From positions 1 to 39,451 of the IMG/VR virus record IMGVR_UViG_3300006947_000030: DNA of 39,451 bases; one strand, 5' to 3'. The notes beneath the pieces were generated by a model that did no database searches, was not told the DNA's origin, and saw only the letters and a list, made by a program, of their open reading frames with translations. The position numbers and the translations under genes were made by a program. The stretch is from a virus. Below, one piece after another: positions 8,490-34,351 of the stretch; position 1 is the stretch's first letter, and each line of letters opens with the position of its first letter.

Positions 8490-8939
8490 TTATTTAAGGA
8501 TCTTTATTCCCATGGACTTAAGAACGTCTTCGTGCCATATAACAAAATGCCATCCACGATTATCACAAAACTCTTCTGCAGCTCTCCACTTAGATTGATT
8601 CTTAATGTATGTCAATGCTTCAGTGATAGATCTACGAGATCGCCGAGTAACTTTAGGAGGTATAGTTTCTTTCTTAGGTTTAATCTCTACAAGGTATTGT
8701 GCCCCTGACCTATCTTTATAATATACGTCAACAAAGTACCGATGCATACGTTTATCTGTCTCACATCGGTAAGGTATTACTACTTCTTCTGAGTTCCATT
8801 CAACAATATCAGGGTTTGCATCTATCCATCTGAATGTATTTCTTTCCCATAATGATCTATAAACAACCTTATCTGGGTCACCTTTGTATTTTTCTGCGTT
8901 TTTAGGGCGGTATTTCCCCTTGTACGTCATTCGAGCCAT
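8490..8939 (-). CDS. 4: Head completion nuclease gp4
   Basis: The 149-residue protein matches T4 gp4: N-terminal Y-K-G-K-Y-R-P-K, K-Y-K-G-D-P-x-K-V-x-Y-R-S-x-W-E, then N-P-D-I-V-E-W-x-S-E-E, I-P-Y-R, and H-R-Y-F-V-D-V. Acidic D71 with E85-I-K87 forms a PD-(D/E)XK-like nuclease core, with W48/E51 in front. gp4 acts with gp2 to finish packaged heads before tail joining. It is the first gene of the minus-strand operon that runs to 4682 and starts at 8939, with AAGG upstream, opposite gp48. Confidence 0.88.
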   Translation of the reverse strand: MARMTYKGKYRPKNAEKYKGDPDKVVYRSLWERNTFRWIDANPDIVEWNSEEVVIPYRCETDKRMHRYFVDVYYKDRSGAQYLVEIKPKKETIPPKVTRRSRRSITEALTYIKNQSKWRAAEEFCDNRGWHFVIWHEDVLKSMGIKILK

Positions 8940-18153: not shown

Positions 18154-21100
18154 ATGGCCATTAAGTTTAACGTAGATCCATACTACGATGACTTTCTTAA
18201 GGATGGGGCTGATAGCCTCTCCCCTCAGGAAAAATATCATAAGGTACTCTTCCGTCCTGGAATTGCTGTGCAAGCACGAGAGCTTACTCAGCTTCAGTCG
18301 ATTCTTCAAAACCAGGTTACTCAATTCGGTAACCACATGTTTAAAGAAGGTTCGCTTGTAATTCCTGGCGGTAACTCTTATAACAACTACGCCGACTATG
18401 TTAAGCTGTCTGCTACTAACGCTGCTACTGTGGGTGATACCCTTAACGGTAAAATGGTTGCGAACGCAGCAGGCCTGCGTGCTAAAATCATTAAAGCTGT
18501 TGCTGCCACCGGATCTGATCCCGATACATTTTATGTGGTTTATCAGAATTCTAACGGCGCAACTAATGCTAATAAGGTATTTAGTTCATCTGATTCTTTA
18601 ACTGAAAAAGTGTGGAATGCCAGTAGTTCTTCTTACGACAATGGTACACTTACAGCAACAGTTGCATCATCTGCAGCAACGGGCGAAGGTGCGCTGATTC
18701 AAGTTGAAGAAGGTGTATACTTCTTACGCGGACATTTTGTCATTGTTAAAGCTGACACTCTTATACTTTCAAAGTACACTAATAATATTTCCCTTGATGT
18801 TGGTCTAGAAATTACTGAGGCTGTTACTACTGCAGCTGAAGATACTACTTTAAACGACAACGCGACTGGTTCTCCTAACTATGCAGCTCCTGGAGCACAT
18901 CGTTATTCAATCAAGACTGCGCTTAAGACACAAGCGAACTATGCCTCTACAATTGAAAACTTCTTATTATTACTACGAGTTGTAAATGGCAAGGTACAAA
19001 AACAAGTACGTGGCTCTGATTATTCTGTGATCGAAGACGTATTAGCTCGCCGTACATACGATGAGTCTGGTGACTACACTGTTCGACCTTTCCGTGCAAC
19101 GATGAAGGAAGATACTGCAGTCAATTCTCCAGGTGATGCTACTAAATTGATCGCAGCGATCGAGCCTTCTAAAGCATACGTTCGTGGTTATGAGATTCAA
19201 ACATTATCTACTACTAACCTATCAGTTAATAAAGCTCGTGAAGCGGCATTGTTTGAAGGTGCTTCTGTATCCTCACTTATTGGCAACTACATTAACCTAT
19301 TAGCTTCCACAGTTACTGGTCTACCCGATATAACTACCTTTGGTCAGATTGAATTAAGAAGTGCAACAGGCGGCGGTGGTTCTATCATCGGATACGCACG
19401 TGCTCGTAGCATTGAAAAAGATGGTACTAACTATAAGTTATATTTGTTTGACGTCTTAATGAATGCTAGCCAAACATTCTCTTCTGTTAGATCTGTTAAG
19501 GTTGGAACTACATTTGCTGGTAACTTAGTTCTAGTGAATAGTAAAGCAGTTATAAACGAACCTATCAATAATACTGCAGTGTTTGCTTTACCGTTCGATC
19601 GTGTTAAAACATGCGATGATGGTACTGGTGATTTTAACTACGTATATTTCTCTAATAAAAGGTTTGGAGCTGATACAGTTTCTGGTGGTGAAGCAACGTT
19701 TACTACGGCAGGTTCCACAGAGTTGTTCGAACCGTTTGATAATGATAACTGGATCTTAGCTGTTACGTCTGGATCAAGTGCGGGTACTATTGTCGCAGCA
19801 TCATCTGGTGATGTTAGCATCGCAGGTAACTCTCAATCAGTAGACATCTCAGGGCTTACTTCATATAACGGTGACCAAGTAACATTGATTGCTGGTATTA
19901 AGAAAACTCTCGATCACGATTCTAAATCATTGACAACCTCTGGTTCTCAGAACGTTCATCAAGTAGCATTCACCAATCAGTCTACAATCGAAGCTGGAGA
20001 TTTAGCGTTAGGTAAAGCTGATGGTTATCGTTTGCTTGCGGTGTATATGGCTCCAAACTTTTCAACAGTAGCGACAGCGTCGCACCCTGATGTTAAGGAA
20101 TACTACGACTTTGACAATGGTCAAACAGATAACTTCTATGGTATATCTAAGGTTACTATCAAGCCTGGTACAAACTTTGTTCCTACTGGAAGATTACTAG
20201 TTAAGTATGAGTTTTTCACTCATGACGGAACAGGCGATTTCTTCTCAGTAGATTCATATTCAGGTCTTACAGACGACGACGGTGCTACAGTAACATACGA
20301 AGATATTCCTTCATATACTGTTAAGTCAACTGGTAAAGTGATTGAGCTCCGATCAGCTATCGATTTCCGTCCTCGTGTATCAGACGCTGGTGGGAACTTT
20401 ACTGGAACTGGTGCAATTGTTAAGCTTTGTCCAGAACCTGCTACTACATTTACTACTGATATTCAATACTACTTAAATCGTCGCGACAAGGTATTTTTAG
20501 ATAAGAACGGTACTTTCGGAGTTATTGAAGGTGTTTCTTCTCTTAATCCTGAATTACCAGATGATCCAAAAGATGCAATGGTATTATACCAATTGTTAGT
20601 GCCTGCTTATACTCTTAAGCCGTCTGATGTTGAGATTACTGTTCTTGATAACAAGCGTTATACAATGCGAGACATTGGTAAGATCGATCGTCGTGTCAAT
20701 ACCTTAGAGTATTACACTGCATTGACATTCTTAGAAAAAGAAGCGTCTGATCGTCAAGTTGTTGATTCAACAGGTGCACTACAACGGTTTAAGAACGGCT
20801 TTGTTGTTGATTCGTTTAAGTCATACAATGTTGCTGATGTTATTTCTCCTGAGTTTAGGGCAGCTATTGATCCTGATCGAGGTGTCTTACGCCCACAGTT
20901 CTCACAAGAATCAACACGTCTTCGTTGGGATTCAAGTGCTTCAACTGGAGTAGTTAAAACTGGCGATCTAGTAACATTACCATATAGTTCTGTTTCTTTA
21001 GTGAATCAGCCACAAGCTTCTTCTGTTATTAACGTTAACCCATATGACGTATTCACATGGTCTGGATCTCTTGACTTATCACCTTCATCAGATGAATGGC

Positions 21101-23385
21101 GTGATGTTAGTCGTCGTCCTGCAGTAACCATTGATAACTCAGGTGTTACGAATGCAATGTTAGATCAGATAAATGAATCTACAGCGTTTGGTACAGTATG
21201 GAATAACTGGCAAACACAATGGACTGGAACGCAAACACAGAATGGTAACTGGATAGCAGCTGGAGGAAGACGCCGTGAGAGAACTCTTACTACTGATACC
21301 TTAGCTACTCAAAATCGCACTGGTACTAATACTGCGCTGGCTTGGTCTACTCAGGTAGATTCTCAAGGTGATCGTGTAGTGTCAATCGATATTATACCGT
21401 TTATTCGCTCTCGTCAGATTTCATTCCGTGCTGTTCGTATGAAGCCAAATACTAGAGTATATGCATTCTTTGATGGTGTTGATGTATCATCATTCGTACG
21501 TGAAGAATCTTCTTATACCTTATGGTCTAATAACGATTCCTCAGTTGTTACAGGACAGAATGCGATTACCGCTCATCCAAGTACAGCAGGTCAATTGATT
21601 ACAGATGCATCTGGTTATATAACTGGTTCGTTCTTTATACCTAACAATAGTGCTACAACGTTTAGTACTGGTTCTAGGGTATTCCGACTAACTGATTCAA
21701 CCACAAATGCTACGACTAATACTACAGAAGCTGAAGCTTCGTATAACGCCGTTGGATTGATTGATAATATTGAAGAAGTCTTTTTGTCAACGCGTACTCC
21801 TCGAGTTGAGCGAAGTGCTGTAGGTGATAATAGAACTATTATTACTAATACTCGAACTGAGACTCAAACGGGTTGGGCAGATCCATTAGCACAGTCATTC
21901 TTAATTGATGAAACTGGTGGAGCATATATCACAAAGGTTGATATGTTCTTTGCTACTAAAGATGATAACATTCCTGTGACGTTACAGATTCGTGAAATGG
22001 TAAATGGTTTTCCATCTCCACGAATTGCGCCGTTCGGTGAAGTTGTATTGAATCCTGCAAGCGTTAACATATCAGCAACTGCTGCAACCGCCACAACCTT
22101 TACATTTGAATCTCCTATATTCTTACAAGAGAACGTTGAGTACTGTGTTGTACTACTTGCCAATACTAATAAGTATACTGTATGGCATGCTGTAATGGGC
22201 CAAGAAGATTTAGCTGGTGTTAAGATTAATAAGCAACCATATGCTGGTGTAATGTTTAAGTCTCAGAACGCCGCTACATGGACAGCTGATCAGAACGCTG
22301 ATCTTAAGTTCAATATTCATCGCGCTGAGTTTACTATTGGTGCAACAGCTAATTTAGTTCTTAAGAATGATGCTCCTGAAAAAGCTAGCTTACAATATGA
22401 TCCATTTAAGTGTACTTCTGGTTCTGGTATTGTTAGAGTATCTCATGACAACCATGGATTCTTTGTACACGGAAGTGTTAATTCAAGTGTAACAATATCA
22501 GGTGTTGCAACAGCGATACACGGTATTCCAGCTTCTGAATTGAATGCGACACACGTAGTGAGTGCGGTAGAGCAAGATTCATATACAATTACGGTATCAA
22601 CAAATGCTACATCAACAGGTATTGGTGGTGCAGCTACGATAGATGCTACAGATAATAGAGCGTTCCAAGCGTTCCAAACTAATATTCAACAAGTCTTATT
22701 GACTGGAACGAATGTTACTTGGGCAGCTAAAACGACGTCTGGCCTAGGTCTTATGGAAACATCTCGTACGCCTTATGTGGTTGATAGTGCATTCTCAGCA
22801 ATCATACCTAATGAGACAATGTACTCATCTACTACACGGGTTATTGCAACTGCTGATAACAAGAATGTTTCAACATTCCTTGCTCGTGGCGCGTTTACTT
22901 CAACACGAAGTAACCTATCTCCTGCAATAGATCTTGAAAGAGCATCGGTGTTTACTATAGGTAATAGAATTGATAGACCTGTAGGATCAACCACCGCAGG
23001 CTTTAACGTTGTGGATGGCTTTGTCGCTGAAACAACAGCTGCTGTCGGATCTGCTCTTGCTAAGTATGTTACAAAAACAGTGTTACTAAATGAAGCTTCG
23101 TCCACATTGAAAATCTTTATAGATGTTGCTCGTCCAAATAATACAGAGTTTGAAGTGTATTATAAGACAGGTGCTGATGAGACAGAGGTGAATGCCGCAA
23201 GCTGGGCCTTAGCAACTCCAGATAATGTTATACCAGTTAGTGACACTGGAACATTCAGTGAAGTTGAATGGACGATCAATCCTACTATTGACTTTAAAGC
23301 GTTTGGTATTAAACTTGTTATGAAGTCTGAAAACCCAGCACTAGTACCTAACGCTGCAGCATTCAGAGCAATAGCATTAGTATAA
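18154..23385 (+). CDS. Giant virion structural protein, DUF4815-type (baseplate/fibre connector)
   Basis: At 1743 residues this is the largest protein here. The N-terminus has F-N-V-D-P-Y-Y-D-D-F, F-R-P-G-I-A-V-Q-A-R-E-L-T-Q-L-Q-S-I-L-Q-N-Q, and F-G-N-H-x-F-K-E-G-S-L-V-I-P-G-G, which I recognise as the DUF4815 pattern of marine T4-like structural proteins. The rest is beta-rich with repeated S, T and G. Further landmarks are D-F-R-P-R-V (about 735) and a P-L-A-Q-S-F-L-I-D (about 1243-1251) typical of fibre-attachment segments. It takes the place of T4 gp9/gp10. Ribosome site AAGGGAAAA precedes the ATG. Confidence 0.75.
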   Translation: MAIKFNVDPYYDDFLKDGADSLSPQEKYHKVLFRPGIAVQARELTQLQSILQNQVTQFGNHMFKEGSLVIPGGNSYNNYADYVKLSATNAATVGDTLNGKMVANAAGLRAKIIKAVAATGSDPDTFYVVYQNSNGATNANKVFSSSDSLTEKVWNASSSSYDNGTLTATVASSAATGEGALIQVEEGVYFLRGHFVIVKADTLILSKYTNNISLDVGLEITEAVTTAAEDTTLNDNATGSPNYAAPGAHRYSIKTALKTQANYASTIENFLLLLRVVNGKVQKQVRGSDYSVIEDVLARRTYDESGDYTVRPFRATMKEDTAVNSPGDATKLIAAIEPSKAYVRGYEIQTLSTTNLSVNKAREAALFEGASVSSLIGNYINLLASTVTGLPDITTFGQIELRSATGGGGSIIGYARARSIEKDGTNYKLYLFDVLMNASQTFSSVRSVKVGTTFAGNLVLVNSKAVINEPINNTAVFALPFDRVKTCDDGTGDFNYVYFSNKRFGADTVSGGEATFTTAGSTELFEPFDNDNWILAVTSGSSAGTIVAASSGDVSIAGNSQSVDISGLTSYNGDQVTLIAGIKKTLDHDSKSLTTSGSQNVHQVAFTNQSTIEAGDLALGKADGYRLLAVYMAPNFSTVATASHPDVKEYYDFDNGQTDNFYGISKVTIKPGTNFVPTGRLLVKYEFFTHDGTGDFFSVDSYSGLTDDDGATVTYEDIPSYTVKSTGKVIELRSAIDFRPRVSDAGGNFTGTGAIVKLCPEPATTFTTDIQYYLNRRDKVFLDKNGTFGVIEGVSSLNPELPDDPKDAMVLYQLLVPAYTLKPSDVEITVLDNKRYTMRDIGKIDRRVNTLEYYTALTFLEKEASDRQVVDSTGALQRFKNGFVVDSFKSYNVADVISPEFRAAIDPDRGVLRPQFSQESTRLRWDSSASTGVVKTGDLVTLPYSSVSLVNQPQASSVINVNPYDVFTWSGSLDLSPSSDEWRDVSRRPAVTIDNSGVTNAMLDQINESTAFGTVWNNWQTQWTGTQTQNGNWIAAGGRRRERTLTTDTLATQNRTGTNTALAWSTQVDSQGDRVVSIDIIPFIRSRQISFRAVRMKPNTRVYAFFDGVDVSSFVREESSYTLWSNNDSSVVTGQNAITAHPSTAGQLITDASGYITGSFFIPNNSATTFSTGSRVFRLTDSTTNATTNTTEAEASYNAVGLIDNIEEVFLSTRTPRVERSAVGDNRTIITNTRTETQTGWADPLAQSFLIDETGGAYITKVDMFFATKDDNIPVTLQIREMVNGFPSPRIAPFGEVVLNPASVNISATAATATTFTFESPIFLQENVEYCVVLLANTNKYTVWHAVMGQEDLAGVKINKQPYAGVMFKSQNAATWTADQNADLKFNIHRAEFTIGATANLVLKNDAPEKASLQYDPFKCTSGSGIVRVSHDNHGFFVHGSVNSSVTISGVATAIHGIPASELNATHVVSAVEQDSYTITVSTNATSTGIGGAATIDATDNRAFQAFQTNIQQVLLTGTNVTWAAKTTSGLGLMETSRTPYVVDSAFSAIIPNETMYSSTTRVIATADNKNVSTFLARGAFTSTRSNLSPAIDLERASVFTIGNRIDRPVGSTTAGFNVVDGFVAETTAAVGSALAKYVTKTVLLNEASSTLKIFIDVARPNNTEFEVYYKTGADETEVNAASWALATPDNVIPVSDTGTFSEVEWTINPTIDFKAFGIKLVMKSENPALVPNAAAFRAIALV

Positions 23386-25220: not shown

Positions 25221-25283
25221 ACTTATAGGATAATATTGTGGCAAGACCATTAAAAGTAGATAACACCACTCCTATAAGTTTAA
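25217..25283 (+). repeat. Perfect 14-bp inverted repeat enclosing a GTG start codon
   Basis: TTAAACTTATAGGA at 25217-25230 and its exact reverse complement at 25270-25283 flank 39 bases that contain the GTG start (25238-25240). The left arm covers the stop codon of the upstream gene and the only purine-rich ribosome-site candidate (ATAGGA). In RNA this would form a hairpin hiding the ribosome site. Confidence 0.75.
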
Positions 25284-26203
25284 AGGAGATGACTGATGTA
25301 GAGATGAATTACATCGCTAACAGAATTCTTGATGCATATCATGCAAGTGCTTTAGGAGCTTTAACTGTTAACTCTAACCCTGGTTCTTATACTAGTATCG
25401 GTGCGTTCGTTGATACCGTTCGGCCGGGTTCTGTTGGCGATCATCCAGCATCTTCTACTATAAATAGTACAACATACACATTTAGACAAAACCGTCAGAC
25501 TGGATCTGAAGGCCATGTTGGCCCTATGGTATTTGATACCACATTAGATGGTATACAACAAGCTGGCAGTACAGAACTAGGTAATAAAATTAATGCTATT
25601 ACATTTGGAATTATGTCGGCAAGTGGATTAGCAAGTTATGTGTTGCAAGCAAGTGCTCCTTCAGGTGGCACCTGGACCACAAGAGCTACAATAACTGATA
25701 CAGCTATTAGTGGTAATGCTACTACTAAATTGTGGCAAAAGACTGCAGATACTACACCGACTATTGTTAGGCCTTTATTATTTAATACTGGTCTAGATGG
25801 AATAAAAGAAGCAACTGATGCCGAGATAAGTTTACTAGTTGTCCAATATCACAACTGGTTAATGGCTAATAATAAAGGTCATTATTATGCATCAGCGTCT
25901 GCTCCTGGCGCAGGTACTTGGGTTCAAGTAGGTTCTGTATTCACTGATACTCGTCAGCAACGTAGTAACCAAAACTATACAGGATATTATTCTGGAACTT
26001 ATACTGGAAACTACACCGGGACATACGCTGGATCTTATATAAGATATTTTCGTGGTTGGGTAGGTGGTTATTTTACAGGATATTATTCTGGAACTTATAC
26101 TGGAAACTACACAGGTAACTACGCTGGAACTTATACTGGTGCAACGATTCAAGCATCAAAAGAAAACGTATCAACAATAAAGCTTTGGCTGAGGACTGCA
26201 TAG
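25238..26203 (+). CDS. Fibre protein with C-terminal Tyr-Thr-Gly repeats (GTG start)
   Basis: A 321-residue protein. The N-terminus (A-R-P-L-K-V, then E-M-T-D-V-E-M) and paired D-G-I-Q-Q-A / D-G-I-K-E-A repeats fit fibre-like architecture. The C-terminus (about 248-305) is a run of Y-T-G, Y-S-G-T and N-Y-T-G units in which nearly every third residue is Tyr, a low-complexity pattern seen in some marine phage fibre tips. The start is GTG at 25238 inside the inverted repeat at 25217-25283. The gene ends two bases before the modification island, so its repeats are a candidate substrate. Confidence 0.7.
   Translation: MARPLKVDNTTPISLKEMTDVEMNYIANRILDAYHASALGALTVNSNPGSYTSIGAFVDTVRPGSVGDHPASSTINSTTYTFRQNRQTGSEGHVGPMVFDTTLDGIQQAGSTELGNKINAITFGIMSASGLASYVLQASAPSGGTWTTRATITDTAISGNATTKLWQKTADTTPTIVRPLLFNTGLDGIKEATDAEISLLVVQYHNWLMANNKGHYYASASAPGAGTWVQVGSVFTDTRQQRSNQNYTGYYSGTYTGNYTGTYAGSYIRYFRGWVGGYFTGYYSGTYTGNYTGNYAGTYTGATIQASKENVSTIKLWLRTA
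25978..26112 (+). repeat. Identical 39-base direct repeats in the Tyr-rich tail
   Basis: The 39 bases at 25978-26016 recur without a mismatch at 26074-26112. Both encode the same Y-T-G-Y-Y-S-G-T-Y-T-G-N-Y segment, and a shorter piece (CTGGAACTTATACTGG) occurs a third time near 26123. Such identity suggests recent duplication or a recombination hotspot. Confidence 0.85.
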
Positions 26204-26204
26204 C

Positions 26205-26492
26205 ATGAAAGATTTTTTCGGATTAAGAGAACAACAAGAAGGATGGGAGAGCGAGGAATTTGAAGAGGCTACTCTAGGTCTACCCACTAAGAAAATGGAT
26301 AAGGCATCTGCAGCTACTTTAAAAATGGCTTTAAATAATAGTGTTAATGGTTTTGAATCAGTAGCATGGAAATTAGAAAATCAGTATGAAGGTGTTGATC
26401 CAAAGGCAGTTGCTGAATTAAGAGCTTTATATAAACAAGCAAAGAAAATCCAAAAGGGTATTGTTAGCGCAATAGATAAATCAAAGGCATAA
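26205..26492 (+). CDS. Small acidic helical protein, unknown
   Basis: A 95-residue protein with an acidic N-terminus (E-E-F-E-E-A) and two long helices; residues 35-90 look like a helical hairpin. It has no cysteine or membrane segment. The ribosome site is GAGGACTGC. It begins two bases after the Tyr-rich fibre gene and opens the accessory island. Family not recognised. Confidence 0.65.
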   Translation: MKDFFGLREQQEGWESEEFEEATLGLPTKKMDKASAATLKMALNNSVNGFESVAWKLENQYEGVDPKAVAELRALYKQAKKIQKGIVSAIDKSKA

Positions 26493-26494
26493 TC

Positions 26495-26959
26495 ATGAAT
26501 GTAGTATCAAAGAAATATAGTGACCCAGTGTGGGGTGATAACAATAAGAACTCAGTGTTAGTTACTATCATTACAGAAACAGAAGACGGTAATATATTAG
26601 TACAAGATGCTTCTGTTTCTAAAGATGAAAGTAATCCTGACTGGCAAGCTATCGTAAAAGAGTATAAAGAAACAGGCATAGATAATAATACCAAAGCTAT
26701 TATAGCTTCAAATAAAGAAAATATTATATCTAAAACCGCTGCTCAAAAAGAAGAGCGAGCTAGTTCATTAGAACGTGGTAAACAAGAAAAGTTGTTTGAA
26801 ACTAAGCTTGCTATATTTGAGATTGAAAATATCAAGAACTCTAAAGATCGTAAGATCAAATCGTTGATCCGTAAAGCACCCACTGAAATTGAAGCAATGG
26901 CTTATGCCACTGCGCTTTTATTGAATGTAATTAATGAAACTCCAAAGCAAAAAAAGTAA
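26495..26959 (+). CDS. Hypothetical protein, helical, unknown
   Basis: A 154-residue protein with an N-terminal beta part (about 1-45) that starts W-G-D-N-N, followed by a long Lys/Glu-rich helical region (70-150). Small proteins with such an N-terminal pattern occur next to fibre genes in marine phages, where they can act as fibre-assembly chaperones, but I have no direct proof. Two bases separate it from the upstream gene and it overlaps the next glycosyltransferase start by 26 bases. Confidence 0.6.
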   Translation: MNVVSKKYSDPVWGDNNKNSVLVTIITETEDGNILVQDASVSKDESNPDWQAIVKEYKETGIDNNTKAIIASNKENIISKTAAQKEERASSLERGKQEKLFETKLAIFEIENIKNSKDRKIKSLIRKAPTEIEAMAYATALLLNVINETPKQKK

Positions 26960-27653
26960 TGGTTATTTAATAGCTGCGACTCAGTCTAAGTATTATTATC
27001 AAAGTGCGATAAACTTAGCTGAGTCTATATTAGATCATTTCCCAGATGCAAAGATTGCATTGTTCACTGAAGAAGGTTTATTTGAAGATATTCATATAGA
27101 CCTATTCGATCATATAAATCTAGAAACTCCTTCACATTGTCGTGGTAAGCTATGGGCTTTGTCACGAACGCCTTATATCAATACAATGTATATCGATGCA
27201 GATTGCGAAGTGATGCACGAAGATATATCTACGGTGTTTAAACATACTAAGGGTGATATTACTCTCACTAACATTAGACCTTATTCAGGGGCACAAGTAA
27301 AGTTTAATAATAATACCGAAGAAATGGTGTACCATTGCGGTGTAATGTGTTATAATAGTAATACGTTAATGTTAGATTTTATGAAAGACTGGTGGGAAGA
27401 GTTTAAATATCAATATGAAGTTCAACCATGGCCTTACCCTGATGATGAATCATTAAGAATATGGGATCAGTATACTTTCTGGCGTTTACTAAGGATGGAT
27501 AAACATAAAGGAATAAAGATCGGCATCTTTGAAGATGATGCTAGATGGAATTTCGTAAACAACTATAAAAAAGATGAAGCAGAAGGTGAGATAATAATAT
27601 ATCACCACACATTAGATGGAGATAAAGTGTATGCGGGTTCTATCAAAGATTAA
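26934..27653 (+). CDS. GT-A-like glycosyltransferase 1
   Basis: A 239-residue protein with the GT-A pattern: a beta strand Y-L-I-A-A-T-Q-S, a helix, K-I-A-L-F-T-E, K-L-W-A-L then T-M-Y-I-D-A-D (DxD metal/nucleotide-sugar motif at 88-90), and downstream H-C-G-V-M-C-Y-N-S. GT-A enzymes of this form transfer a sugar from a nucleotide donor. The acceptor is unknown. The start at 26934 overlaps the previous gene by 26 bases, without a strong ribosome site. Its 3' end overlaps the next oxygenase gene by 23 bases. Confidence 0.7.
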   Translation: MKLQSKKSNGYLIAATQSKYYYQSAINLAESILDHFPDAKIALFTEEGLFEDIHIDLFDHINLETPSHCRGKLWALSRTPYINTMYIDADCEVMHEDISTVFKHTKGDITLTNIRPYSGAQVKFNNNTEEMVYHCGVMCYNSNTLMLDFMKDWWEEFKYQYEVQPWPYPDDESLRIWDQYTFWRLLRMDKHKGIKIGIFEDDARWNFVNNYKKDEAEGEIIIYHHTLDGDKVYAGSIKD

Positions 27654-28254
27654 TCCAGAACTAATAGAGATTCTAGATTGGTGGAAAGACTGGGTATTTT
27701 CTATTGATATAGAAGCTAATGCAGACCTTGGAAGACAAGGGACATACGATCATGTATACGGAACAAGTGATGAATATCTAGAACAGCTTAAAGATGAAGC
27801 ACACGTTGGATTTCCAGAATGCAGCAGAGGTGTATCATTAGGAAGTGAACCAAGACAATATCCTATTGAATGGGAAGCAACTATTAAGGAATGTGAAAAG
27901 AAGCTTATTGGATTTCTTGGTGCTAGGAATGGTGCGATTAAGATGTATTATCCTAAGGACGGTTTTTTAGGTTGGCATAATAATGCTAATGCGTCTGGCT
28001 ATAATATCATTATGTCATACACTGAGAACGGTGGTGGGTATTTTAAATACCAAGATCCGATTACAAAAGAGATTGTTAAGATAGATGATCCAGGTGGATG
28101 GACGGTTAAGGTAGGATATTTTGGTGCACACGATGAACCAGATCATATATTCTGGCACACTGCAGGTACTGACGTACCAAGACTTACGTTAGGTTATATT
28201 ATACCAGATAAATGGATGTGGGAAGAGATGATCATGGATATAAGTGATGACTAA
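27631..28254 (+). CDS. 2OG-Fe(II)-oxygenase-like protein (HxN...H...R)
   Basis: A 207-residue protein with a double-stranded beta-helix look: Y-Y-P-K-D-G-F-L-G-W-H-N-N (H116, N118), Y-N-I-I-M-S-Y-T, G-G-Y-F-K-Y, then I-F-W-H-T (H176) and R-L-T-L-G-Y (R184). The order H-x-N, H, R matches the iron-binding and 2-oxoglutarate positions of this superfamily, except that the usual Asp is Asn. Cyanophages often carry related genes. Substrate unknown. I take the ATG at 27631 (GGAG nine bases upstream); 27616 would add five residues. It converges on the next gene with a 23-base overlap. Confidence 0.65.
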   Translation: MRVLSKINPELIEILDWWKDWVFSIDIEANADLGRQGTYDHVYGTSDEYLEQLKDEAHVGFPECSRGVSLGSEPRQYPIEWEATIKECEKKLIGFLGARNGAIKMYYPKDGFLGWHNNANASGYNIIMSYTENGGGYFKYQDPITKEIVKIDDPGGWTVKVGYFGAHDEPDHIFWHTAGTDVPRLTLGYIIPDKWMWEEMIMDISDD

Positions 28255-28966
28255 GTTCATCGTACATCCATGGTTCAACATCACCATTAAAAAGACATAC
28301 TAATGCCTCTTTAATATAATACAAATCTATTTCATCATACGGTAGCAACTCTGTTTTAACTTTATTCTTGAAAGTCTTATGCTTTCCAATATAATCATCT
28401 GATATTCCACACACCCTAGAGTATATTAATCCTTCTGGAAAATACTCTAGATTAAATCCTTCATGGAATAAAAATCTATCAATGCCTTTATACTTAATCA
28501 TATAGTAATCAGCATTAGCATCAAAGTGGTCCCATATGTAATCTAAAGAACCTGCTTCCCATACAAGCACACTTGAATTAACGTACATATTATATCGTTC
28601 TTTGCGCTTCAGTGAAGAACCATCCGTAACTAAATCACCCTTCCAATATGCACGTATCATTCTAAGATTATCGCACTTATAGTCTAACAATGGCTCTATA
28701 TTGTTTTGAATAACAACGTCTATATCAAAGTATAAACATGTACCTTTTACAAAATCCTTTTGAAACATCGCAAGCTTGTTCCAGTAAATTTCTAGGTCAT
28801 TATCTAGAGGCATAGATATAATGTCACACTCAAGTCCAGTAGGATCTTCTGTATAACAATAAAATTTATGAGGTACCTTAAGATATTTCTGCACGTTTCT
28901 TTGAAGTCTATTGACCTCATATGCAGAATACTTAGTACCCCATTTAACACATATAACATTTATCAT
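28232..28966 (-). CDS. GT-A-like glycosyltransferase 2
   Basis: A 244-residue minus-strand protein: V-K-W-G-T-K-Y-S, N-R-L-Q-R-N, F-Y-C-Y-T-E, then L-Y-F-D-I-D-V-V with D-I-D at 81-83. It is a clear paralogue of the protein at 31935-32681 (V-G-T-K-Y-S, N-R-L-Y-x-S, L-Y-C-Y-T-D, L-D-I-D-W) although the two genes face each other. I place the start at 28966, since a longer upstream frame crosses the divergent gene. It lies exactly five bases after AATAAATA and has no ribosome site. Confidence 0.7.
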   Translation of the reverse strand: MINVICVKWGTKYSAYEVNRLQRNVQKYLKVPHKFYCYTEDPTGLECDIISMPLDNDLEIYWNKLAMFQKDFVKGTCLYFDIDVVIQNNIEPLLDYKCDNLRMIRAYWKGDLVTDGSSLKRKERYNMYVNSSVLVWEAGSLDYIWDHFDANADYYMIKYKGIDRFLFHEGFNLEYFPEGLIYSRVCGISDDYIGKHKTFKNKVKTELLPYDEIDLYYIKEALVCLFNGDVEPWMYDELSHHLYP

Positions 28967-28971
28967 AAGGC

Positions 28972-28979
28972 TATTTATT
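28972..28979 (-). promoter_or_regulatory. Probable T4-type late promoter (AATAAATA) for glycosyltransferase 2
   Basis: AATAAATA (7 of 8 to the late consensus) reads from 28979 to 28972 on the minus strand, then GCCTT, then the ATG at 28966. The five-base spacing equals that at 8480 and 13187. The region also overlaps the start of the divergent gene at 28980. Confidence 0.55.
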
Positions 28980-29543
28980 ATGTTCGTAATGGACGCAGTT
29001 ACACAACGAGCGATTAAAAAATTCCCGCACAGAGCGGTTGACATAGTCCAGTCGTATGATGAAAAGCAAGTTAAGTGTAAGGATTGGTTATGCGAGCATA
29101 TTGAAATGGCAAACATACCAAGTGTTAAACGCATGTACATAGCAGGAAGTTGGTATGGCAATGTGCTTGTACCTCGATTAAAAGAAATCTTTCCTGACAC
29201 AGAAATAAGATTACATGATATTGATGAAGAAGTGGTGGGCATATCTAAAAACATATTCTTTAAAGATGATGATCTGGTTAAGGCTGATCTCATAGATTGT
29301 TCTGCTCATGAATATAAATATTTAGTAATTAATACTTCGTGCGAACACATGCCTCCGCTTAAAGTAAGGCCAGGGTCATATGTGGCATTACAGAGTAATA
29401 ACTATCGTGAAATAGAAGATCATACTAACTGTGTAGACTCTGCTGAAGAATTAGCCACACAATATGGCGTCAATGAGATTTTATACAAGGGTGATTTAGA
29501 GTTTGAAAAATATACAAGATTTATGGTTATAGGAAGAGTATGA
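28980..29543 (+). CDS. Rossmann-fold SAM methyltransferase-like protein
   Basis: A 187-residue protein: M-Y-I-A-G-S-W-Y-G-N (glycine-containing motif I at about 53-61), E-I-R-L-H-D-I-D-E (acidic end of beta 2, D80), V-K-A-D-L-I-D (motif II region), and I-N-T-S-C-E-H-M-P (motif IV-like). This is the SAM-binding order of class I methyltransferases, but no family-specific feature shows the substrate. The ATG at 28980 has AAGG nine bases upstream. Only 13 bases separate it from the divergent glycosyltransferase. The 3' end overlaps the next radical SAM gene (ATGA). Confidence 0.6.
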   Translation: MFVMDAVTQRAIKKFPHRAVDIVQSYDEKQVKCKDWLCEHIEMANIPSVKRMYIAGSWYGNVLVPRLKEIFPDTEIRLHDIDEEVVGISKNIFFKDDDLVKADLIDCSAHEYKYLVINTSCEHMPPLKVRPGSYVALQSNNYREIEDHTNCVDSAEELATQYGVNEILYKGDLEFEKYTRFMVIGRV

Positions 29544-30853
29544 AAGAAACATTAGACGATATTAAAGAAGACAAGAATTGGTTTTGCCCGCTTCCATTTA
29601 ATCACATATACTCAAACTCCGACGGTTCATGGATGCCCTGTTGTTTGAGTAAACAAACTTCAAAGGATGATGCAAATATTATTTCTACTGATAGAATAAT
29701 AATGTACAACACTGAAAACACTTCGATGATCGATTGGTGGAAATCTGATACTATGAATGGCATCAGGGATGAAATGGTAGGTAAAAGTAAAGAAACAAAA
29801 CTTACTGATCATTACTGTGGTAACTGCAAAAAACAGGAAAATATACAAGGGACATCTGCTAGGATAAAATGGAAGAACTCAGCAATTGGTGATTTAAAGC
29901 ATCACCAATCTTCTAGGGCTTTAATAATGGCAGTTGATTCCTACAAAGATTATAATGAAATGGATTTATCAGATATTGATGATCGTTTCTTAAGTCTTAA
30001 ATTAAGGATATTCGGTAACCTATGTAATCTATCTTGTTATATGTGCTGGCCTCATAATTCTAGTACACGTATTAATGATGTTAAAAGACTACCAGATAAG
30101 TATAAAGGTATGTGGTTTGATAGCAGGCGCACTGATGATGGAACACCTAAAAATATTTCTAAGGTAAATAAAGATGAATTCGCTTCTTCTCTAGAGCAAA
30201 TAAAAGACATTGCTCATTTAGTTAGTTCTATTAAAATTACCGGTGGTGAACCGATGATGATGGACAGTCATTACAAATTACTAGATTTGCTTATTGAATC
30301 TGGAGATGCCAAACATATTGTGTTAAAATATCAAACAAACTTTACTAAGTTTAGCCGAGGTGAAGAAGCCTTTTTTAAATATATGAAAGAGTTTGAACAT
30401 GTGCATGTACATATCTCTATTGATAGTGTCGGCGAATACGATGAGTATATTAGAAAAAACGGAAGTACCGATACTGTAGAAAAAAACATAGATAAATTAC
30501 AAAATCTACCTAATGTTTCCTTTGGAATTGCAAACACTGTATCAATGTTAAGTGTGTTAAACCATGGTGAATTTGATAAGAAGTGGAAAAATAAAAATGC
30601 TAAGCTTAGTTATTTTGTGTTAGCATATCCTGACTATCTTTCTGTAAAGCATCTTCCTGATAAAATCAAACAAAGATTAATAACCGAGACCGCACAAGAA
30701 CCTATTATAAAAGTGCTAAAACAAGAAAGAGATGATTCTCAATTTCAGATTGCAATACAATATTGTCTAGATCTAGATATACTATATAAAAGAAAAAGAG
30801 GGTTATTCGATCTATGGCCTGAATTGAAGGAATACTATGTACAATCCGGCTGA
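29540..30853 (+). CDS. Radical SAM protein with N-terminal Twitch-like Cys domain
   Basis: A 437-residue protein. The core has C162-x3-C166-x2-C169 (N-L-C-N-L-S-C-Y-M-C) for the [4Fe-4S] cluster that cleaves SAM, and I-T-G-G-E-P at 233-238. In front, residues 14-96 carry C16-P-L-P-F, D-G-S-W-M-P-C34-C35 and C93-x2-C96, an auxiliary-cluster Twitch/SPASM-like set placed N-terminally, as in the N-Twitch radical SAM group. Such auxiliary clusters often occur in peptide-modifying enzymes. It starts inside the methyltransferase stop (ATGA) with AGGAAG before it, and overlaps the next gene by 17 bases. Confidence 0.85.
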   Translation: MKETLDDIKEDKNWFCPLPFNHIYSNSDGSWMPCCLSKQTSKDDANIISTDRIIMYNTENTSMIDWWKSDTMNGIRDEMVGKSKETKLTDHYCGNCKKQENIQGTSARIKWKNSAIGDLKHHQSSRALIMAVDSYKDYNEMDLSDIDDRFLSLKLRIFGNLCNLSCYMCWPHNSSTRINDVKRLPDKYKGMWFDSRRTDDGTPKNISKVNKDEFASSLEQIKDIAHLVSSIKITGGEPMMMDSHYKLLDLLIESGDAKHIVLKYQTNFTKFSRGEEAFFKYMKEFEHVHVHISIDSVGEYDEYIRKNGSTDTVEKNIDKLQNLPNVSFGIANTVSMLSVLNHGEFDKKWKNKNAKLSYFVLAYPDYLSVKHLPDKIKQRLITETAQEPIIKVLKQERDDSQFQIAIQYCLDLDILYKRKRGLFDLWPELKEYYVQSG

Positions 30854-31499
30854 TAATTTAGAATTCTTTGACCGTAACATCAACTTAGATATTACTCATA
30901 GATGTATTCTTCAATGCCCTAGATGTATGAGGCAATTTAAACCCGGACTGCACAAACGCGGTCATGATATATCTGTCGAAGATTATACAAAAATATGCAA
31001 AGCTTTCAGTGGTGTAGCTCTTTGCGGCCAAATGGGAGATCCTATATATCACACAAAACTTCACGATCTATTAGATGTTAATATAGAACAAAAGAATCGT
31101 TTACAGATTTCAACAAATGGCCACGGTAAAAAAGATGCATGGTGGGATAAGTCTTTTGCAAAGACGCGTAAGTTGCATAGGCATAAGTGGATATTTGGTA
31201 TAGATGGTTTACCTAAAGACAGCCATGTGCATCGTGTTAATCAAAATGGTGAAGCTGTTTTTGAAAAAATGGTTGAAGGCGCAAAGGTAGGCAATAACAT
31301 ACTCTGGCAGTATATCGTTTTTAAATATAATGAGAACGATATTGAAGAAGCTATTCAACTGGCCAGAGATAATAACATTAAATTCATGCTCTTAGAATCA
31401 AGTAGATGGCTAGGAGAAGACGATCCGCTTCGGCCATCTAAACATTATATTGATAGAACACTTGGACGTGAGATCGAAATGTTAGGAACGCAGGTATGA
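30837..31499 (+). CDS. Radical SAM protein 2, minimal
   Basis: A 220-residue protein with L-D-I-T-H-R-C23-x3-C27-x2-C30-M-R and a G-Q-M-G-D-P segment (64-69) in the position of the GGEP motif. There is no auxiliary Cys set on the chain, so it is a core-only radical SAM protein, shorter than most. It begins behind GAAGGAATACT inside the preceding gene and ends in ATGA with the Cys-rich protein at 31496, which could supply the missing cluster domain. Substrate unknown. Confidence 0.8.
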   Translation: MYNPADNLEFFDRNINLDITHRCILQCPRCMRQFKPGLHKRGHDISVEDYTKICKAFSGVALCGQMGDPIYHTKLHDLLDVNIEQKNRLQISTNGHGKKDAWWDKSFAKTRKLHRHKWIFGIDGLPKDSHVHRVNQNGEAVFEKMVEGAKVGNNILWQYIVFKYNENDIEEAIQLARDNNIKFMLLESSRWLGEDDPLRPSKHYIDRTLGREIEMLGTQV

Positions 31500-31855
31500 G
31501 TAAAATTATAGTAAGCGATAGGCCTAAGTTAACTAAAGCGCAAATAAGGGATATGGAAGTAAAACTATATCCTAGATGTTTAGATCTAGAACAAAGAAAA
31601 CCGCCTGCATATAGTGCAGCAGGATATATTCTTCCTTGTTGTTGGGCAGATACTGCTAACTGGGATGGTTATGAGAAACTTGTTCAAGAGCATTTACATA
31701 TCAGCAACGTTAAGGATGTTGATGAGATATTATTTTCATATGAATGGGATGAGTTTTTTCATAACTTAATAGAGAACCCAAGGCTAGCGCCGCGGGTGTG
31801 CAAAATTAAATGTTGCACAGAAATGCCATTTAAATTAAAATTAAAAGTAAGATAG
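31496..31855 (+). CDS. Free-standing SPASM/Twitch-like Cys-rich protein
   Basis: A 119-residue protein with six cysteines: Y-P-R-C28, G-Y-I-L-P-C48-C49, then V-C102-K-I-K-C106-C107. The L-P-C-C-W and later Cys cluster resemble the M-P-C-C and C-x2-C of the N-terminal domain in the 437-residue radical SAM protein, so I read it as an auxiliary iron-sulfur domain encoded apart from its enzyme. It is coupled (ATGA) to radical SAM protein 2. Partner and clusters are inferred. Confidence 0.65.
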   Translation: MSKIIVSDRPKLTKAQIRDMEVKLYPRCLDLEQRKPPAYSAAGYILPCCWADTANWDGYEKLVQEHLHISNVKDVDEILFSYEWDEFFHNLIENPRLAPRVCKIKCCTEMPFKLKLKVR

Positions 31856-31866
31856 CGGATGCAATT

Positions 31867-31938
31867 ATGCGATTAACAGTAGGGGATCAATCAATAGGAT
31901 TTTTTGATTTTGGTTCATATGATGGCGGAAGACAATGA
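31867..31938 (+). CDS. Small ORF of 23 residues, coupled to the next glycosyltransferase
   Basis: Between the Cys-rich protein and glycosyltransferase 3 a 23-codon frame runs from ATG 31867 to a TGA that overlaps the next ATG (ATGA at 31935-31938). The peptide has a Gly- and Phe-rich composition (I-G-F-F-D-F-G-S-Y-D-G-G). The ribosome site is weak. It may be a leader that couples translation, or a modification substrate, or chance. Confidence 0.3.
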   Translation: MRLTVGDQSIGFFDFGSYDGGRQ

Positions 31939-32681
31939 TACACATACTTACTCTTAAAGTAGGTACTAAGTACTCTGTGGACTATGTCAATAGGTTATAC
32001 AATAGCATTAAAAGAAATACCTCAGAAGAATTTAAACTTTATTGCTATACAGATGATAATAAAGGTGTACATTCTGATATAACTGTGATACAATTAGATA
32101 ATCCAGAGGAGTTTAAACTTCAATGGCATAAGATTAAATTCCATAAATCTGGATTTGGTGATATACCTGTAGGTGAGAAGTGTCTTATACTTGACATTGA
32201 TTGGATCATTACAGGTGACATGGATGATATACTCTCTTATGATCTTTCAAAGAATACGTTTGGTTGCTTTGAAAGATGGTGGTCTAACCTAACTCATCTA
32301 TGTAAGATCAATGGTGGATTTCAGATGTATCATATGGGAGACACTGATCATCTATGGGAAGAGTTTGTAAAAGATCCAGAGTATTGGCAAGAGTATTATA
32401 TTAATAACGGCTTAGCTTCTGGTCCTGTCAATGGTGAACAAAACTTTATTGATGAGCATGTTGGATTAGATCGTGCTTGGTTGCAACCTATATGGTTCGC
32501 AAAGTATCAAGAAGAAAGATTAAGAGAGATTCAAGTTAACTGGAATAAATCGTGTGGCATATCAGAGCCATTCTTTATGGGTGGTGAGTTTCATGAAGAT
32601 ATTAAAATGGTACACTTCTCTGATTCTGATAACAATATGGAACTAGTAGAAGATGATTGGATTAAGGATTATTGGTATTAA
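31935..32681 (+). CDS. GT-A-like glycosyltransferase 3
   Basis: A 248-residue protein with V-G-T-K-Y-S, F-K-L-Y-C-Y-T-D, and C-L-I-L-D-I-D-W (D-I-D at 87-89), followed by N-G-G-F-Q-M-Y and N-G-E-Q-N-F-I-D. It is the paralogue of glycosyltransferase 2 in opposite orientation. The start overlaps the small ORF (ATGA), behind GGCGGAAGAC. The 3' end converges on the B12 radical SAM gene with 20 bases of overlap. Confidence 0.72.
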   Translation: MIHILTLKVGTKYSVDYVNRLYNSIKRNTSEEFKLYCYTDDNKGVHSDITVIQLDNPEEFKLQWHKIKFHKSGFGDIPVGEKCLILDIDWIITGDMDDILSYDLSKNTFGCFERWWSNLTHLCKINGGFQMYHMGDTDHLWEEFVKDPEYWQEYYINNGLASGPVNGEQNFIDEHVGLDRAWLQPIWFAKYQEERLREIQVNWNKSCGISEPFFMGGEFHEDIKMVHFSDSDNNMELVEDDWIKDYWY

Positions 32682-33864
32682 ATTTTTCGATCTTATTTGT
32701 TGCATGATCTTTAAATTTATAACCAAGAGCAGCACCTACCTCAAATACCTTTAAGAATCTTCTATATCTTTCATCATAGTCTGAATTCTCATTAGTCCAT
32801 TTAAAACCAAAGTCATCATATAGATCTCTATGGTTATAATCAAGTGGTGTATTTTTATCGACCAACATCATATGAGGTGAGATTTCAGTGGTTGGTGCAT
32901 ATCTTTTAAACTTCTTTAGCATCTCTAAGGTTTCAAGGAAATCCTCTTTAGTCTCTGTAGGATAACCAACAATCAATAAGAACTTCATCTTGATACCTCG
33001 GTCACCAATGTTAGTGATAAACCATTCTAAGTCATCGTCACTAAACTTCTTCTTCATATGGTAACGTACTGCCTCAGATCCAGATTCAATCCCTATCGTT
33101 AATCCACTACATCCAGAATTAGCAAGGTTATTAAAGTCTTTCTCTAAAAAGGTCTTCTTAGGACGGATAATAAATTGACCGCTCCATTTAATTTTTTTAT
33201 CAATATTAGCAAGTGAATAACACATTTCTCTAAAATGATTCATAGACCCATTTACTAAAGAGTCTGAGAATCCAATACTCTTAAATCCTGTTTGTGTTGA
33301 TACAGCATGCATATGTTGAGCGATACGTTCACCACCAAGAAATCTATACTTAGGCCATATTGATGCAACATCACAAAAAGTACAGGCACGTACACATCCA
33401 CGAGAACCTGAGATCACAGCAGATGTGTACGCAGAATGATTTAGATCAGAGTAATCAGGAGGAGGTAGTATCGCCAAGTCAGGTATTTGTACTTGAGCTC
33501 TACCATTAATACCTGGATAATATTTATTTCCACGGAGGTATTCTAATAGAGCAAGCTCACCTTCACCTACAATATAATCACCATGCGGCCAATCTTTATG
33601 AACTCCTGAACCACCATAGATTACATTTTCATACTCTTCACCAAGCTCTAAAGCAAAGTCTACTTGCTCATATGAGAAGACTGAAATTCCTAGATACTTA
33701 TATTCGTATTGTGATATTGTTAGATGTATTGAATCAATATCACCTATCTGATTACCGTCAATTGTTTTTACAGTAAATCCGTGTTGTTCTATGTAAGCCT
33801 TTATAAATCCTAAAGCAGGGGAAGGTTTGTCTTTGTCCATTTCAGGCAAAGATACAAGTACCAT
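32662..33864 (-). CDS. B12-binding-domain radical SAM protein
   Basis: A 400-residue protein. Residues 1-130 form a Rossmann-like domain (M-V-L-V-S-L-P, G-F-I-K-A-Y-I-E-Q-H-G, Y-G-G-S-G) of the B12-binding type. At the spot of the DxHxxG cobalamin motif it has D36-G-N-Q-I-G41, so the His is Asn. The radical SAM core follows with C157-x3-C161-x2-C164 after S-R-G, then I-G-I-E-S-G-S and L-I-V-G-Y-P-T-E-T. Class B members include methylases and ring-forming enzymes; substrate unknown. Start at ATG 33864 directly after the upstream stop; GTG at 33873 is an alternative. Confidence 0.85.
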   Translation of the reverse strand: MVLVSLPEMDKDKPSPALGFIKAYIEQHGFTVKTIDGNQIGDIDSIHLTISQYEYKYLGISVFSYEQVDFALELGEEYENVIYGGSGVHKDWPHGDYIVGEGELALLEYLRGNKYYPGINGRAQVQIPDLAILPPPDYSDLNHSAYTSAVISGSRGCVRACTFCDVASIWPKYRFLGGERIAQHMHAVSTQTGFKSIGFSDSLVNGSMNHFREMCYSLANIDKKIKWSGQFIIRPKKTFLEKDFNNLANSGCSGLTIGIESGSEAVRYHMKKKFSDDDLEWFITNIGDRGIKMKFLLIVGYPTETKEDFLETLEMLKKFKRYAPTTEISPHMMLVDKNTPLDYNHRDLYDDFGFKWTNENSDYDERYRRFLKVFEVGAALGYKFKDHATNKIEKFNTNNP

Positions 33865-33865
33865 A

Positions 33866-34318
33866 TCATACACTAAACGCACCTACTATATGAATTCTGT
33901 CTTGCTTAGATGCATTAAGTGCAGTGTGCATTTTCGTCGTATCAATTACGTATGCTTCACCTGTTGCAGGTAAATGCATTTGCTCGCCGTCTACGATAAG
34001 AAAGCAATGTGGATTTGTTACGACTGGAATATGCAAACGTTTCGTATAGTCGTTGTGCCAATAAAGGCAAGTTTTAGGTTTCATTCTCATTATGCGTGTA
34101 CGTACTAATCCATGTTCATTGATAATAGAATTGATATAAGGAATATCAAACAAATTAATGTTATACTCTAACTCGTTATCATCTACGTATAAATAATTTT
34201 GTCCACGAGTAGGTTCAATAGGATCCATATCAGATCTATTCCCTTGTAGATATAATTGATTCTTGTACTCTGGAAGAGTTGTTAACTCCAATAGTATTTT
34301 AGAAATATTGTAATTCAT
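33866..34318 (-). CDS. Asp/Asn beta-hydroxylase-like 2OG oxygenase
   Basis: A 150-residue protein with the aspartyl/asparaginyl-hydroxylase pattern: C-L-Y-W-H88-N-D90, R-L-H-I-P-V (R94), then a small G-E-x-Y-V-I-D-T segment, H131, and R141-I-H. These are the iron ligands (H-x-D, H) and the 2-oxoglutarate Arg. Such enzymes hydroxylate residues in proteins. It is the first gene of a two-gene minus operon with the B12 radical SAM enzyme, under the promoter at 34352-34380. The ATG at 34318 has GGAGG at the best spacing; 34321 is also possible. Confidence 0.8.
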   Translation of the reverse strand: MNYNISKILLELTTLPEYKNQLYLQGNRSDMDPIEPTRGQNYLYVDDNELEYNINLFDIPYINSIINEHGLVRTRIMRMKPKTCLYWHNDYTKRLHIPVVTNPHCFLIVDGEQMHLPATGEAYVIDTTKMHTALNASKQDRIHIVGAFSV

Positions 34319-34351
34319 CATATACCTCCACCCTCAGCAGATAACTCTTCT

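Follow-up and report, generated by a model that had tools for sequence, protein, structure and literature searches.

Results

Gene content of the island

The window examined here, i.e., the full 39,451 bases of the IMG/VR virus record IMGVR_UViG_3300006947_000030, is, judged by its genes, from a marine T4-like myovirus: it encodes a baseplate wedge protein, a tail-tube cap, a gp19-like protein and a single-stranded DNA-binding protein, and its nearest cultured matches at the DNA level are cyanophages. At 26.2-34.3 kb, between fibre genes, it carries an island of glycosyltransferase, methyltransferase-like, oxygenase-like and radical S-adenosylmethionine (SAM) genes, two of which are the main subject of this work, namely a short radical SAM barrel devoid of an auxiliary-cluster domain of its own, rSAM2 (30837..31499, plus strand), and the gene whose start overlaps the rSAM2 stop (ATGA), which encodes a putative stand-alone Twitch/SPASM-type auxiliary Fe-S cluster protein (31496..31855, plus strand; hereafter the SPASM protein). 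Open reading frames (ORFs) are present for every gene that a first-pass annotation of the sequence had placed in the island.

On the plus strand, the island runs on from a fibre-like gene with Y-x-G-x repeats (25238..26203), whose product may conceivably be a substrate, through four genes separated by gaps of one or two bases or overlapping one another: u95 (26205..26492), a small protein defined by its ORF and position, no family scoring above cut-off; u154 (26495..26959), a fibre-associated protein that adjoins the island also in L067, L069, L070 and other contigs, follows a fibre gene in relatives as well and is possibly a fibre assembly chaperone; GT1 (26934..27653), a GT8-like glycosyltransferase; and OG1 (27616..28254), a possible but unconfirmed 2-oxoglutarate (2OG) oxygenase-like protein. 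GT2, also GT8-like, follows on the minus strand (28232..28966, with an ATG start at 28966), and the plus strand then continues with MT (28989..29543), a divergent class I methyltransferase-like protein, and rSAM1 (29540..30853), an N-Twitch radical SAM enzyme. Beyond rSAM2 and the SPASM gene lie the scar of a deleted PP-loop ATPase gene (31867..31938, plus strand) and the GT8-like glycosyltransferase GT3 (31935..32681, plus strand), and the island closes on the minus strand with a B12-type radical SAM protein (32662..33882, starting at GTG 33882 or ATG 33864) and OG2 (33866..34321), an Asp/Asn beta-hydroxylase-like 2OG oxygenase. These junctions had been read as coupled operons, and ATGA or other short overlaps do occur within u154-GT1-OG1, within MT-rSAM1-rSAM2-SPASM and between OG2 and the B12-type gene; however, because GT2, the B12-type gene and OG2 are on the minus strand, the island comprises several transcription units rather than one. 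The core of the T4 late promoter, TATAAATA, is found in the window (both strands) in 13 copies against 5.4 expected, in some cases directly upstream of structural genes; inside the island, what precedes GT2 is only a weak AT-rich match, and no firm promoter map emerges.

Family searches substantiated most of the first-pass assignments. The N-Twitch protein rSAM1 is a full-length match (residues 13-433, E 1.7e-88, 297.4 bits against a cut-off of 170) to NCBIfam NF033640, the twitch domain-containing radical SAM proteins, with nothing notable setting it apart from that family, and it also exceeds the cut-offs for PF04055 and SPASM. A PF04055 search of the window returned three radical SAM genes (4.7e-18, 5.9e-14 and 4.8e-7, the third below the curated cut-off). 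The second radical SAM protein, rSAM2, is a 220-residue barrel with the CX3CX2C motif and further motifs of its family (PF04055, 1.6e-5). As for the B12-type protein, its radical SAM domain is above cut-off (PF04055, 1.4e-15) and its B12-binding match is weak and below it (PF02310, 0.0012, 19.1 bits against 32.1), no DxHxxG motif was seen in it, and it is 81% identical to its counterpart in L068 and 72% to that in L069. All three glycosyltransferases keep an invariant DxD, and profiles retrieve GT8 structures at E values of 0.001-0.002 (glycogenin at 0.0014 for a profile of six GT1 homologues; 5gvv at 0.0021 for the GT2/GT3 profile); GT2 and GT3 further match phrog_1962 (4.9e-11 and 1.9e-13). 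The window glycosyltransferases themselves do not match Pfam GT8, and comparison of the GT1 and GT2/GT3 profiles gave a probability of just 14%. The methyltransferase assignment rests on alignment and family members, 8 of 26 of which match Methyltransf_25, the best match being to Methyltransf_31 (4.9e-6); MT of the window alone has no family match. The claim of two 2OG oxygenases held for OG2 (PF05118, Asp_Arg_Hydrox, 1.1e-12, 48.5 bits against a cut-off of 22.6), which is paired with the B12-type gene in L068, L069 and L070 as well. It was not confirmed for OG1: none of six homologues matches any family, the AlphaFold2 model is poor (predicted local distance difference test, pLDDT, 44), and the sole hint is a conserved H-x-N...H...R, where 2OG oxygenases carry H-x-D/E.

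The rSAM2 and SPASM pair

The 119-residue SPASM protein, which matches nothing in Pfam, PHROG or NCBIfam, is homologous to the C-terminal auxiliary-cluster domain that fused viral relatives (e.g., L029) carry on the same chain as the barrel, an arrangement confined to such relatives, as in the window the domain is a separate ORF; the first-pass description of a separate Cys-rich Twitch/SPASM-like protein is thus borne out. Its recurrence was followed in two independent searches, one seeded with rSAM2 (61 loci) and the other with the SPASM protein (80 loci). In the former, separate SPASM genes of 90-139 residues adjoin short radical SAM genes, and other loci have a single fused chain; in the latter, 78 of the 81 separate SPASM ORFs have a radical SAM gene on the same strand no more than 300 bases away, and nine chains are fused. 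The SPASM gene comes after its partner in 40 of these 78 pairs and before it in 38, and the three unpaired copies are one at a contig end and two of identical sequence (L166 and L167) with rSAM2 one gene upstream. As a proximity control within the same loci, 22 of 220 other small genes were near a radical SAM gene, compared with 72 of 75 for SPASM. Of 109 non-redundant rSAM2 domains, 71 belong to split pairs and 21 to clearly fused chains; no SPASM domain was recognised for the other 17, several of which are on chains of 344-390 residues. The tree of all these domains implies at least six changes between the split and fused states and at least seven changes of gene order.

Five cysteines are invariant in 31 divergent copies of the separate SPASM protein (C...G...PCC...CX3C), a pattern that fits one predicted cluster of the Twitch type and not a seven-Cys SPASM domain; in rSAM2 the cysteines of CX3CX2C (C23, C27 and C30) are invariant in 27 sequences. 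The AlphaFold2 model of the naturally fused relative L029 (pLDDT 83.7, predicted template modelling score 0.86) aligns across both domains with BlsE (Z 18.9, superposing over 260 residues), SuiB (18.9), MoaA (17.7), DesII (16.6) and BtrN (15.1), with SkfB and PqqE among its other matches. Taken together, the near-obligatory pairing, the invariant cysteines and the model of the fused relative argue for a two-subunit SPASM/Twitch-type enzyme, in which the cysteines of the smaller subunit would bind the auxiliary cluster. The rSAM2 and SPASM ORFs of the window do share a four-base overlap and differ in frame, as expected of a frameshift, yet it is scarcely credible that the SPASM ORF is a fragment left by breakage or frameshift of an ordinary SPASM enzyme, considering that the 71 non-redundant split pairs occur in both orders, with their own start codons, invariant cysteines and low ratios of nonsynonymous to synonymous substitution (dN/dS), and that the pair is also split in the cultured phage Mosig. 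Since both gene orders and varied overlaps are found, over many contigs, an artefact of frameshift or assembly was likewise discarded.

The pair is present at well over 100 loci. Cellular genomes contribute few of them, namely seven loci in a genome collection, several on short viral-looking contigs, with the family in 2 of 297 and 1 of 398 sampled genomes (one order, one phylum), so that it is mainly viral; among cultured phages, a close split pair occurs only in Mosig, and Campylobacter phages have distant fused versions. In some T4-like viruses (L040, L037, L018, L170 and others) the genes, split or fused, are inserted where the neck gene (gp15) gives way to those of the terminase (gp16, gp17). 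The pairs in metagenome-assembled genomes (MAGs) of Hyphomicrobiales (L082:7962-8914 and L083:7947-8914) are split, occupy different chromosomal sites and have no sugar genes nearby. A FeS_assembly_P gene (PaaD/SufT-like, PF01883; Pfam match on the L028 member) lies near the split or fused genes in L028, L030, L036, L041, L045 and L059, which fits a need for clusters.

Conservation and genomic context

The order of the island recurs in other viral contigs, and the lack of synteny in all relatives that would have counted against the first-pass proposal is thus not observed. L067 reads u154-GT1-OG1-GT2-MT-rSAM1-rSAM2-SPASM, followed by a PP-loop gene accompanied by another rSAM2 and SPASM gene pair and then by GT3; L069 and L070 have u154, GT1, OG1, GT2 or a similar gene, MT, rSAM1, a fused rSAM2-SPASM, GT3, the B12-type gene and OG2, with PP-loop genes interspersed. 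More partial versions are found in L068 (the OG2/B12-type pair plus a divergent split rSAM2/SPASM pair) and in the contig L078, which binning assigned to a Rhodobacteraceae MAG (the end of MT, rSAM1, rSAM2, SPASM, PP-loop and GT3). The dN/dS values against L067, computable for four genes, are 0.13 for rSAM1, 0.07 for rSAM2, 0.06 for SPASM and 0.19 for GT3, and it is because of this purifying selection (0.06-0.19) and the recurrent order that we do not regard the island as fortuitous. The scar at 31867-31938 matches both ends of the intact PP-loop gene of L067 and L078, retaining its first 15 and last few codons (23 codons) joined at a short repeat, with a stop that still overlaps the GT3 start. 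The same families also occur as fused chains in other viruses: SPASM with GT3 (five distinct cases), GT3 with MT (two), and PP-loop ATPase with rSAM2 (two), rSAM1 (two) or GT3 (one).

After GT3, 2OG-like, TctA-like transporter and ATP-grasp-like genes (named by eye) replace the B12-type gene and OG2 in the closest relatives (L067:15591-17686 and L078:4727-7931), and L078 also has a weak TctC match downstream of GT3 (0.027, below cut-off). Directly before the island, fibre-like proteins with Y-x-G-x tetrapeptide repeats are found in the window (25238-26203), L067:5844-7001 and L069:15200-15403.

A VrlC-like baseplate protein (18154..23385, plus strand), 36% identical to Mosig VrlC (E 6e-142) and marking one border of the host-recognition cluster, precedes the island together with fibre genes, and Mosig-like fibre genes lie on its far side, which places the island at the site of the pelagimyophage host-recognition cluster. 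Of the cluster borders, from VrlC to the gp14 neck gene, the VrlC side is seen and the contig stops short of gp14; the combination of fibre genes and glycosyltransferases by which such clusters are recognised is found in the window. Pelagimyophage clusters of this kind are hypervariable and carry cassettes of radical SAM genes as well as glycosyltransferases (PMC7029224). Elsewhere in the window, among the tail genes, is the N-terminal domain of a TnsA-like endonuclease (PF08722, 5.6e-20; 8490-8939, minus strand).

Discussion

The reading we favour, at a probability of roughly 0.6, is that the island is a late-region cassette for a single pathway of sugar or glycan tailoring, in which rSAM2 and the SPASM protein form a two-subunit enzyme working with GT8-type glycosyltransferases. 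In such a pathway, rSAM2 would contribute the barrel with the [4Fe-4S] cluster that cleaves SAM and would generate the 5'-deoxyadenosyl radical, and the SPASM protein would dock on it and provide an auxiliary cluster that either transfers electrons or binds the substrate. Together with rSAM1, MT and the GT8-type enzymes, the pair would act on one substrate, a sugar unit that, as substrate or product, would be moved by the glycosyltransferases and methylated by MT. The product would end up either on the virion, seeing that the plus-strand start of the island directly continues the fibre gene, or on the host envelope. The first-pass proposal of one dedicated pathway gains support beyond mere adjacency, from the fusions among the same families and from the order kept in L067, L069 and L070; of the targets it had considered, glycan tailoring is favoured on the sequences at hand, with the substrate itself remaining putative.

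Several observations weigh against this interpretation. Peptide maturases and sugar enzymes tie in Z score among the nearest structures; overlapping phage genes can be fused by the loss of one stop codon, so that single cases of fusion are weak evidence; and the PP-loop gene has been lost by deletion in the window. In favour of it, 67 of the 109 rSAM2 domains have sugar-type genes (glycosyltransferase, methyltransferase, carbamoyltransferase, aminotransferase, epimerase or PP-loop) within 5 kb and none for neck, terminase or gp41, a count made without a background control; against it, 17 domains have such core genes nearby and no sugar genes, the remainder being near both classes (4) or neither (21). 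Moreover, the pair stands alone among chromosomal genes in the two Hyphomicrobiales MAGs, on contigs of 174 and 228 kb. Its location near core genes and its isolation in these chromosomes indicate that the chemistry of the pair is linked to glycosyl transfer in some settings but not in all; the link to a sugar pathway thus holds for islands like that of the window, and elsewhere the pair may act differently.

Among the alternatives, the one we take most seriously, while placing it below even odds, is that the pathway rebuilds a host envelope polysaccharide (O-chain) late in infection and so excludes other phages, the virion being uninvolved. GT8 enzymes are common in lipopolysaccharide synthesis, and relatives of the island carry carbamoyltransferase, aminotransferase and epimerase genes that are typical of surface sugars. 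The same role has been proposed for the glycosyltransferases of pelagimyophage host-recognition clusters (PMC7029224). The continuation of the fibre gene into u95, u154, GT1 and OG1, however, suggests late co-expression with virion parts, and family searches of the window island found no membrane flippase, polymerase or O-antigen ligase. A more specific version of glycan tailoring, namely that the SPASM protein is an auxiliary Fe-S subunit, alternatively joined to a glycosyltransferase, in a two-component radical SAM system modifying the phages' own fibre sugars, is put forward tentatively and strikes us as rather improbable.

We deem it unlikely that rSAM2 and the SPASM protein are instead a maturase acting on a phage or host peptide, e.g., the Y-x-G-x repeats of the fibre, with the glycosyltransferases decorating the modified residues. 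Most SPASM enzymes mature peptides, and SuiB, SkfB and anSME are among the best structure matches; those of GT1 are to glycogenin, which is a protein glucosylase; and the repeat fibre adjoins the island in L067 and L069 as it does in the window. Nevertheless, such fibres were found at only three retrieved loci (two distinct contigs), as opposed to well over 100 for the pair, so that the repeat fibre was rejected as its general partner, and no conserved small precursor gene was noticed beside the pair, genes below 50-60 residues not having been searched systematically. Even more doubtful, in our judgement, is that mobile cargo cassettes have accumulated here by chance and share no joint pathway; the region is indeed described as hypervariable (PMC7029224), subsets of its genes recur in other combinations and places, and the window has lost its PP-loop gene, but the order of most genes is kept across three further contigs, the same families are repeatedly fused and the genes are under purifying selection.

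The first-pass annotation knew of no described phage pathway with this exact set of genes, which is literally true of the literature searched, even though islands of this kind have been described. Among the closest is that of the pelagimyophage Mosig EXVC030M, which shares with the window the position beside VrlC, fibre genes to either side of the island, glycosyltransferases and cassettes of radical SAM genes (PMC7029224), as well as a split rSAM2/SPASM pair (Mosig_00084 and Mosig_00085), MT, and GT3-like and GT2-like genes; it differs in having carbamoyltransferase, aminotransferase and nitroreductase genes, and no GT1 or OG1 homologue was found in it. The split SPASM protein is mentioned neither in the accessible part of PMC7029224 nor in the Mosig annotation. 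The latter (L004:13132-14630) gives the name of a molybdenum cofactor enzyme to Mosig_00083 as well as to Mosig_00084; given that Mosig_00084 belongs to the rSAM2 family and Mosig_00083 to no Pfam family, both names look unreliable. The T4-like Campylobacter phages CP220 and CPt10, whose radical SAM/amidinotransferase cluster is described as an interchangeable module (PMC2853527), similarly have an island that lies close to structural genes and contains five radical SAM genes and, in CP220, sugar-transferase-like genes, but their rSAM2-like proteins are single chains of 326-342 residues and no separate SPASM protein was found in them. Another report describes 12 radical SAM genes in one marine T4-like genome (PMC5332604). 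Among characterised enzymes, BlsE, SuiB, SkfB, MoaA, BtrN, PqqE and DesII share the CX3CX2C barrel and the C-terminal auxiliary-cluster domain; in the solved SPASM/Twitch enzymes this domain is part of the chain, whereas in the window and most viral relatives it is a separate protein.

Radical SAM/glycosyltransferase cassettes in phage host-recognition regions are therefore already known (PMC7029224; PMC2853527; PMC5332604), and what appears to be new is the separately encoded SPASM protein. We found no published description of such a detached protein in the open-access literature, where one may still exist. SPASM/Twitch auxiliary clusters have been studied as parts of one chain, and there is debate over whether they transfer electrons or bind the substrate. 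A natural protein that consists of the cluster domain alone would allow the role of the auxiliary cluster to be tested by omission or swap, and the cassette described here would offer a concrete candidate for the function of radical SAM cassettes in the host-recognition regions of marine phages.

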